Positions 9,144 to 10,115 of a DNA stretch of 23,243 nucleotides are shown here, in pieces. A model generated the notes under the pieces. The model worked only from the letters and a program-made list of their open reading frames with translations. It was not told where the DNA came from and did no database searches. Every line of letters begins with the position of its first letter. Position 1 is the first letter of the stretch. Position numbers and translations under genes: made by a program. The DNA lies in the IMG/VR virus record IMGVR_UViG_3300006805_000170, positions 1-23,243 of that record; one strand, 5' to 3'. Source of the stretch: a virus.

Positions 9144-10115
9144 GTGGCCCAGACCCTATTTGGTTCTGCCCATTTCGGCACGGACTACTTTGGGTCTGGG
9201 CCTAATACTTTCACGTACTCAGGCTCTGGTGGTGCTACTGCCGGTGGTTCTGCGACCACTAGCGTCCTGCACATCAAGTCTTATAGCGGTTCCGGTGGCG
9301 GAACTGCTGGCGGTGCCGCTACAACTCAAAAGATTTTTGTATTTCCATATGCTGGCTCTGGCGGGGCTACCGCTGGCGGTTCCGCTGTTACTGAGTTCAG
9401 TAGGTCTTACTCGTACATTGGTAGCGGCGGAGCAACTGCAGGCGGCGCTGCCCAGACGCTCTTTGTAGACATCCACGAGTACACAGGTTCTGGTGGTGCC
9501 ACCGCTGGTGGTGCAGCCACAACCTCTGTTCTCCATGTTTATTCGTACATTGGCAGCGGTGGCGCTACAGCAGGTGGTGCAGCAGACACTGTTTTCAATC
9601 GTACGTTTATCTACGTCGGCTCTGGCGGCGCTGACGCAGGTGGCGCTGCAACCACTTCCGTTTCCCATGTTTACACGTATGCAGGTTCTGGCGGCGCTAC
9701 TGCCGGTGGCGCAGCGGAGACGCTGTTTGTCCACATCTATGCGTACACGGGCAGCGGAGGCGCTACTGCTGGAGGTGCGGCAGCAACTGAATTCTCCCGC
9801 GTCTTCCCTTATGTGGGTTCTGGTGGGGCAACGGCAAGCGGTGCCGCAGATGTACTCCACATCAAGGTTTACGTCGGCTCTGGCGGTGGCACGGCAGGTG
9901 GGTCTGCGGTCGTTGTCTGGGAACCTGCCGCCCCCGGCGAGGTCATCGTGTACGACGTGGCCTCTGGAGGTGCCGTCGTACTTTCAGAACTTTCTCCCAC
10001 CGCCGAGGTACACGACACGTTATACGGCGGTACACTAACCCTGATGGACTACGCTCCGTCGGTCGATATGTACGACATGGCGGTGAGCGGAACGGCGGTA
10101 CTGGTAAATGTCTAA
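9144..10115 (+). CDS. Gly-rich 22-residue-repeat protein, probable fibre or appendage
   Basis: A 323-aa protein from a GTG (GGAG about 8 nt upstream). After an N-terminal LFGSAHFGTDYFGSG, residues about 25-260 contain about eleven repeats, most exactly 22 aa. The constant half is Y-x-GSGGATAGGAA; the variable half comes in recurring types (SVLH, EFSR, TLFV...I). Residues about 266-323 switch to a second repeat of 20 aa (YDxAxxG...L...P). The Gly-rich half may form turns or polyglycine-II-like structure and the variable half beta strands. The repeats are conserved in protein but use scrambled synonymous codons. No enzymatic motif is seen; an extended fibre or surface protein is inferred from composition and context. 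Confidence 0.75.
   Translation: MAQTLFGSAHFGTDYFGSGPNTFTYSGSGGATAGGSATTSVLHIKSYSGSGGGTAGGAATTQKIFVFPYAGSGGATAGGSAVTEFSRSYSYIGSGGATAGGAAQTLFVDIHEYTGSGGATAGGAATTSVLHVYSYIGSGGATAGGAADTVFNRTFIYVGSGGADAGGAATTSVSHVYTYAGSGGATAGGAAETLFVHIYAYTGSGGATAGGAAATEFSRVFPYVGSGGATASGAADVLHIKVYVGSGGGTAGGSAVVVWEPAAPGEVIVYDVASGGAVVLSELSPTAEVHDTLYGGTLTLMDYAPSVDMYDMAVSGTAVLVNV

Follow-up and report, generated by a model that had tools for sequence, protein, structure and literature searches.

The DNA studied here is a 23,243-bp virus record of an uncultured phage (IMG/VR IMGVR_UViG_3300006805_000170), which is taken over its whole length and is called the window in the following. Between the gene assigned as the portal by its size and position and that of the major capsid protein it carries a gene for a repetitive protein, and the array of repeats in this gene adjoins the gene of a 134-aa protein (Table 1).

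Table 1. Genes of the window and features of the repeat gene. Strand is given where recorded.
Feature	Position	Strand	Remarks
Terminase	766-2193		
Probable portal	2819-5044		identified from size and position, without a profile match
134-aa protein	8718-9122	+	elsewhere, relatives lie ahead of related arrays or carry a fused tail collar domain
Repeat gene	9144-10115	+	323 aa, GTG start; open frame; full-length counterpart in L001-L004
N-terminal motif FGSAHFGTDYF	9159-9191	+	kept in L001-L004
Eleven-unit array	9222-9911	+	core GSGGATAGGAA
Unit core starts	9222, 9288, 9354, 9420, 9486, 9552, 9618, 9684, 9750, 9816, 9876	+	
Recombination breakpoint, L002-L004-like to L001-like	9306-9326	+	maximum chi-square, permutation P<0.0005; beside two missing units
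C-terminal part, degenerate repeat	9915-10112	+	period 20 aa; none of 2000 shuffles reached its lag-20 autocorrelation
97-aa protein	10108-10401	+	follows the array
P22-like major capsid protein	14415-15287		
Glycine-rich fibre	18351-19673		PF21722 Gly_rich_2
Amidase	22562-23155		

The initial annotation had placed an array of such units at 9218-9930, and eleven of them, with the predicted core, were indeed found there. Nine units are 22 aa long, the tenth has 20 aa, and the eleventh consists of the core alone. They are preceded by an N-terminus of 26 residues, which contains the motif FGSAHFGTDYF, and followed by a C-terminus of about 66 residues. A DNA pattern for two adjacent units spaced 66 nt apart matched nine times in the window and not once in 100 shuffles; Tandem Repeats Finder, run on the DNA of the array, reported no array. 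A long antisense open reading frame (9219-9860) stays open because the Gly/Ala/Ser-rich codons leave few stops. It was rejected as a gene, as the overlapping antisense frame in the relative L001 has different bounds.

Some observations on the surroundings of the array may be added. L016, a viral contig of 10,935 bp that comes from a different sample, encodes a capsid protein identical to that of the window, and the fibre and the tail protein read the same; a near-identical phage was seemingly sampled twice, with the repeat gene lying outside the stretch covered by L016. The motif FG[ST]A.FG[ST][DN]YF from the N-terminus of the repeat protein recurs inside a large protein of the window (19964-21985; motif at 20318-20350) and again in proteins from three further contigs (L104, L105, L106). 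It may be a short aromatic motif common to structural proteins. Short aromatic repeats also occur in other arrays or their neighbours (L039 687-1388, L100 7041-8276, L073 7418-7651). Their forms (FQPDA FQNDA FQIDA; GLFDPDL, three times; RTFGARTFRARTFGA) resemble the FGSAH FGTDY FGSGP of the repeat protein.

The codons of the units differ from one unit to the next, as had been noted from the sequence: at core positions with the same residue the mean codon identity is 0.34. Whether this exceeds chance was judged against a null model in which synonymous codons are re-dealt among same-residue positions within the gene, so that protein and codon usage are kept. The observed pS between units was 0.740, against a shuffled mean of 0.742 (SD 0.019; P(null>=obs)=0.57), and in all four relatives with a full-length counterpart (L001-L004) the synonymous divergence between units was within chance as well. 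Codon identity in the window's cores was slightly above chance (0.344 against 0.305, P=0.04), which is the opposite of active scrambling. Nor are long exact DNA repeats avoided, as had been proposed: the longest one in the array, 17 nt (15.7 expected), and the ten repeated 12-mers (10.1 expected) are what chance provides. Codon use for Gly, Ala and Thr in the array resembles that in other genes of the phage; only Ser is somewhat more skewed. The divergence between units thus does not surpass random codon choice, and a special scrambling of codons is not borne out. As chance alone would mix the codons to this extent, the synonymous sites of the array are saturated, and nothing further keeps the units apart. 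Between close relatives the repeat gene does not differ in dS from its neighbours (L003-L004: repeat gene 0.15, 134-aa gene 0.20, capsid gene 0.14), which indicates that its codons are not changing unusually fast. In a further array (L029, 5276-5560) units identical in protein over about 14-18 residues still differ at many synonymous codons. Thus saturation is not peculiar to the family of the window.

The glycine-rich fibre gene is a different case. As had been pointed out, it keeps exact repeats, unlike the array: its longest measures 29 nt, where about 16 are expected, and its 57 repeated 12-mers (17 expected) were not reached in any of 200 shuffles. This suggests a younger or homogenised repeat. 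Albeit the fibre is likewise a repetitive glycine-rich structural protein of the same phage, its repeat differs from the array unit, for the unit profile gave it a score of 35.9, below the best score of its own shuffles (46.2).

At the protein level the units are well conserved. Compared over their whole length, the units have a pN of 0.30 between them, and over the core one of 0.09. Whole-unit dS exceeds the range of reliable correction; for the core a dN of 0.10 and a dS of 1.66 were obtained, i. e. a dN/dS of about 0.06. This supports the proposed selection for a fixed protein repeat and shows purifying selection on the protein, most likely strong; the low value is consistent with units that are structurally interchangeable. 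According to Persi, Wolf and Koonin (2016, PMC5120217), dN/dS between the repeats of a protein is usually far above that between orthologues. The window array resembles the birth-and-death repeats described there in that its units are under purifying selection and are duplicated and lost. In contrast to them, its dN/dS between unit cores is as low as that between the window gene and its orthologue in L001 (about 0.10).

Unit number is not constant. The four relatives have 13 units each where the window has 11, the corresponding gap of 44 residues falling in unit 2, and the spread among distant arrays is wider. In the comparison of these five close sequences, on which the recombination analysis rests, the window changes sides beside this gap. 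From the spacer through the unit-2 core it sides with L004 at 35 informative sites, against 4 for L001; past this core, 180 sites speak for L001 and 49 for L004. With L004 in the comparison the breakpoint was best placed at 9320-9326 (permutation P<0.0005), and with L003 or L002 instead at 9306-9311. As neighbouring sites are not independent, no weight is placed here on a very small Fisher value. The window array is a mosaic of two relative lineages with a switch in the core of unit 2. The simplest reading is that unequal exchange between the two lineages at a unit core removed two units; possibly, allelic exchange and a separate deletion of two units occurred instead.

Codon identity points in the same direction. 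Between the window and L002-L004, core codon identity was 0.31 for matching unit positions and 0.35 for non-matching ones, whereas the flanking 134-aa gene keeps a codon identity of 0.71 (92 of 130 codons). Codon orthology is therefore lost in the array and kept next to it, which indicates that the array was reshuffled or replaced. Recombination is active in the array, and its supposed suppression, together with a fixed unit number, has to be abandoned. Among L002-L004 themselves (4001-5101) codon identity is patchy: in the comparison of L004 with L002 or L003 the cores of units 1, 2 and 7 reach 0.36-0.70, and most other units 0.7-1.0. This suggests local exchange or conversion.

For the 323-aa protein no family was found in Pfam and PHROGs at E<=0.1. 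The tblastn search against cultured phages gave no match, in which the low-complexity filter possibly masked the query, and no solved structure is related by sequence, the sole hit (E=0.04) being an antibody chain. The two-unit DNA pattern, however, retrieved further arrays of the form Y-x-GSGG-hxh-[SG]G-[AS]A in L029/L059, L035 and L039, of which L035 matches phrog_11522 (unknown function). A unit profile made from these families matched all eleven window units in register with 157 bits, compared with at most 37 bits for column-permuted units, which keep the amino acid composition; this holds with bias correction off, and with bias correction on the window score does not stand out. Two kinds of candidates were discarded: Orf34 of Skermania phage SPI1, found with L035, is similar by eye but was not matched by the unit profile, and the glycine-rich and GFTGS-type matches of the DNA pattern are unrelated.

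Since the choice of these families had relied on the GSGG pattern, the neighbouring 134-aa gene was taken as the starting point of a second test. This protein has 36 related loci in viral contigs, those of L001-L004 included. Downstream of it, the window-family profile matched arrays in two further viral lineages, L074 (116.8; shuffle maximum 14.4) and L085 (67.1; shuffle maximum 16.1), and L100 and L073 gave weak matches. The gene order in L074 and L085, based on profiles, is portal, 134-aa protein, one or two others, array, protease or protease-like protein, capsid. Fusions of the 134-aa protein to a phage tail collar domain (PF07484 Collar) occur in L097 and L099. The neighbour on the other side, the 97-aa protein, has a homologue in the C-terminal domain of the repeat protein from L029 (BLASTP 30% over 77 aa, E=1e-11, in a single comparison). 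Microcystis phage Mae-JY24 and Synechococcus phage MinM1 share this neighbour, and no array was found in the adjacent ORFs that were read.

The array is thus placed in an uncurated, unnamed class of phage repeats. The members in L029/L059, L035, L039, L074 and L085 share several traits with the window: a unit length of about 18-25 aa, an aromatic residue, a GSGG-like turn, a short stretch of alternating residues, and [SG]G[AST]A. For L074 and L085 the 134-aa neighbour and the location between portal and capsid are common features too. The window units differ in having Ala-Thr-Ala where most of the others have hydrophobic residues (I-Q-F, L-T-L). They are also more uniform, and their number (11-13) compares with about 4 to 30 in the other arrays. 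The DNA of the class behaves in both ways: in L074, L039 and L035 the amount of repeated DNA exceeds chance, and L029 and L085 are saturated, as is the weakly matching L100.

Could the Gly-Ala-rich region simply be a flexible, disordered linker, whose low complexity mimics a structured repeat? The absence of a solved relative by sequence would fit, as would the first, full-length model, which is of low confidence (pLDDT 59). A seven-unit segment, modelled with an alignment using the units in shifted register, gave a pLDDT of 74 and a pTM of 0.71 with two regular strands in each unit; the five models, however, do not agree with one another (mean pLDDT 39-74). Beta-helix proteins were among the best PDB matches of the model (Z 9-12); such Z values are common for repeats through their common arrangement. 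A disordered linker does not account for the strict 22-aa period, the invariant core and Tyr position or the low dN/dS of the core (near 0.06), nor for the strands of the second model and a register that other families have in common with it to a degree not explained by composition (157 against at most 37 bits, bias correction off). We therefore regard it as unlikely. The medium-confidence model may point to a stacked beta-solenoid fold, and together with the position of the gene and the PF07484 fusion of its neighbour it makes a role as virion fibre or spacer the likeliest one.

If the protein is a structured repeat, the mixed codons still call for an explanation. The idea that selection against identical DNA keeps the codons different, thereby suppressing recombination between units and fixing their number, draws on the little exact DNA that the units have in common and on the exact repeats kept by the fibre gene of the same phage. 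It appears very improbable to us, since the divergence equals that of random codons, core identity is if anything above chance (0.344 against 0.305), exact repeats are as frequent as expected, unit number varies and a breakpoint lies within the array. In a milder form, the divergence would be selected indirectly: arrays of identical DNA lose units fast by recombination, and only saturated ones persist. The saturation in the window, its relatives, L029, L085 and L100 would agree with such survivorship. Yet in L074, L039, L035 and the fibre gene repeated DNA exceeds chance, so that arrays with exact repeats do persist, and the saturated array of the window still recombines; we give this form little credence too.

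The explanation that we consider probable is an old repeat of a virion solenoid, a spacer or fibre shaft, which has been under purifying selection, has drifted to codon saturation and turns over its units by birth and death. The gene, lying between those for portal and major capsid protein, would encode an elongated structural beta-solenoid in which each 22-aa unit forms one repeat. Purifying selection would keep the GSGG...GG.A core near-invariant, as any unit has to fit those next to it. In units of sufficient age the synonymous positions would drift to saturation within the ordinary codon usage of the phage, and no force against identical DNA would be required. Homologous exchange at the conserved cores would alter unit number and reshuffle the array.

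The data hence favour the ordinary evolution of an old structural repeat over recombination-proofing. The array provides a clean natural case in which special codon scrambling can be separated from age plus purifying selection, and here the data favour age. More tentatively, a widespread uncurated class of solenoids could exist between portal and capsid genes, in which conserved cores serve as sites of exchange and resizing despite synonymous saturation. This recurring class of phage repeats, which has no curated family and is linked to a 134-aa neighbour joined elsewhere to a tail-collar domain, is the part worth keeping and merits a profile and a structure.
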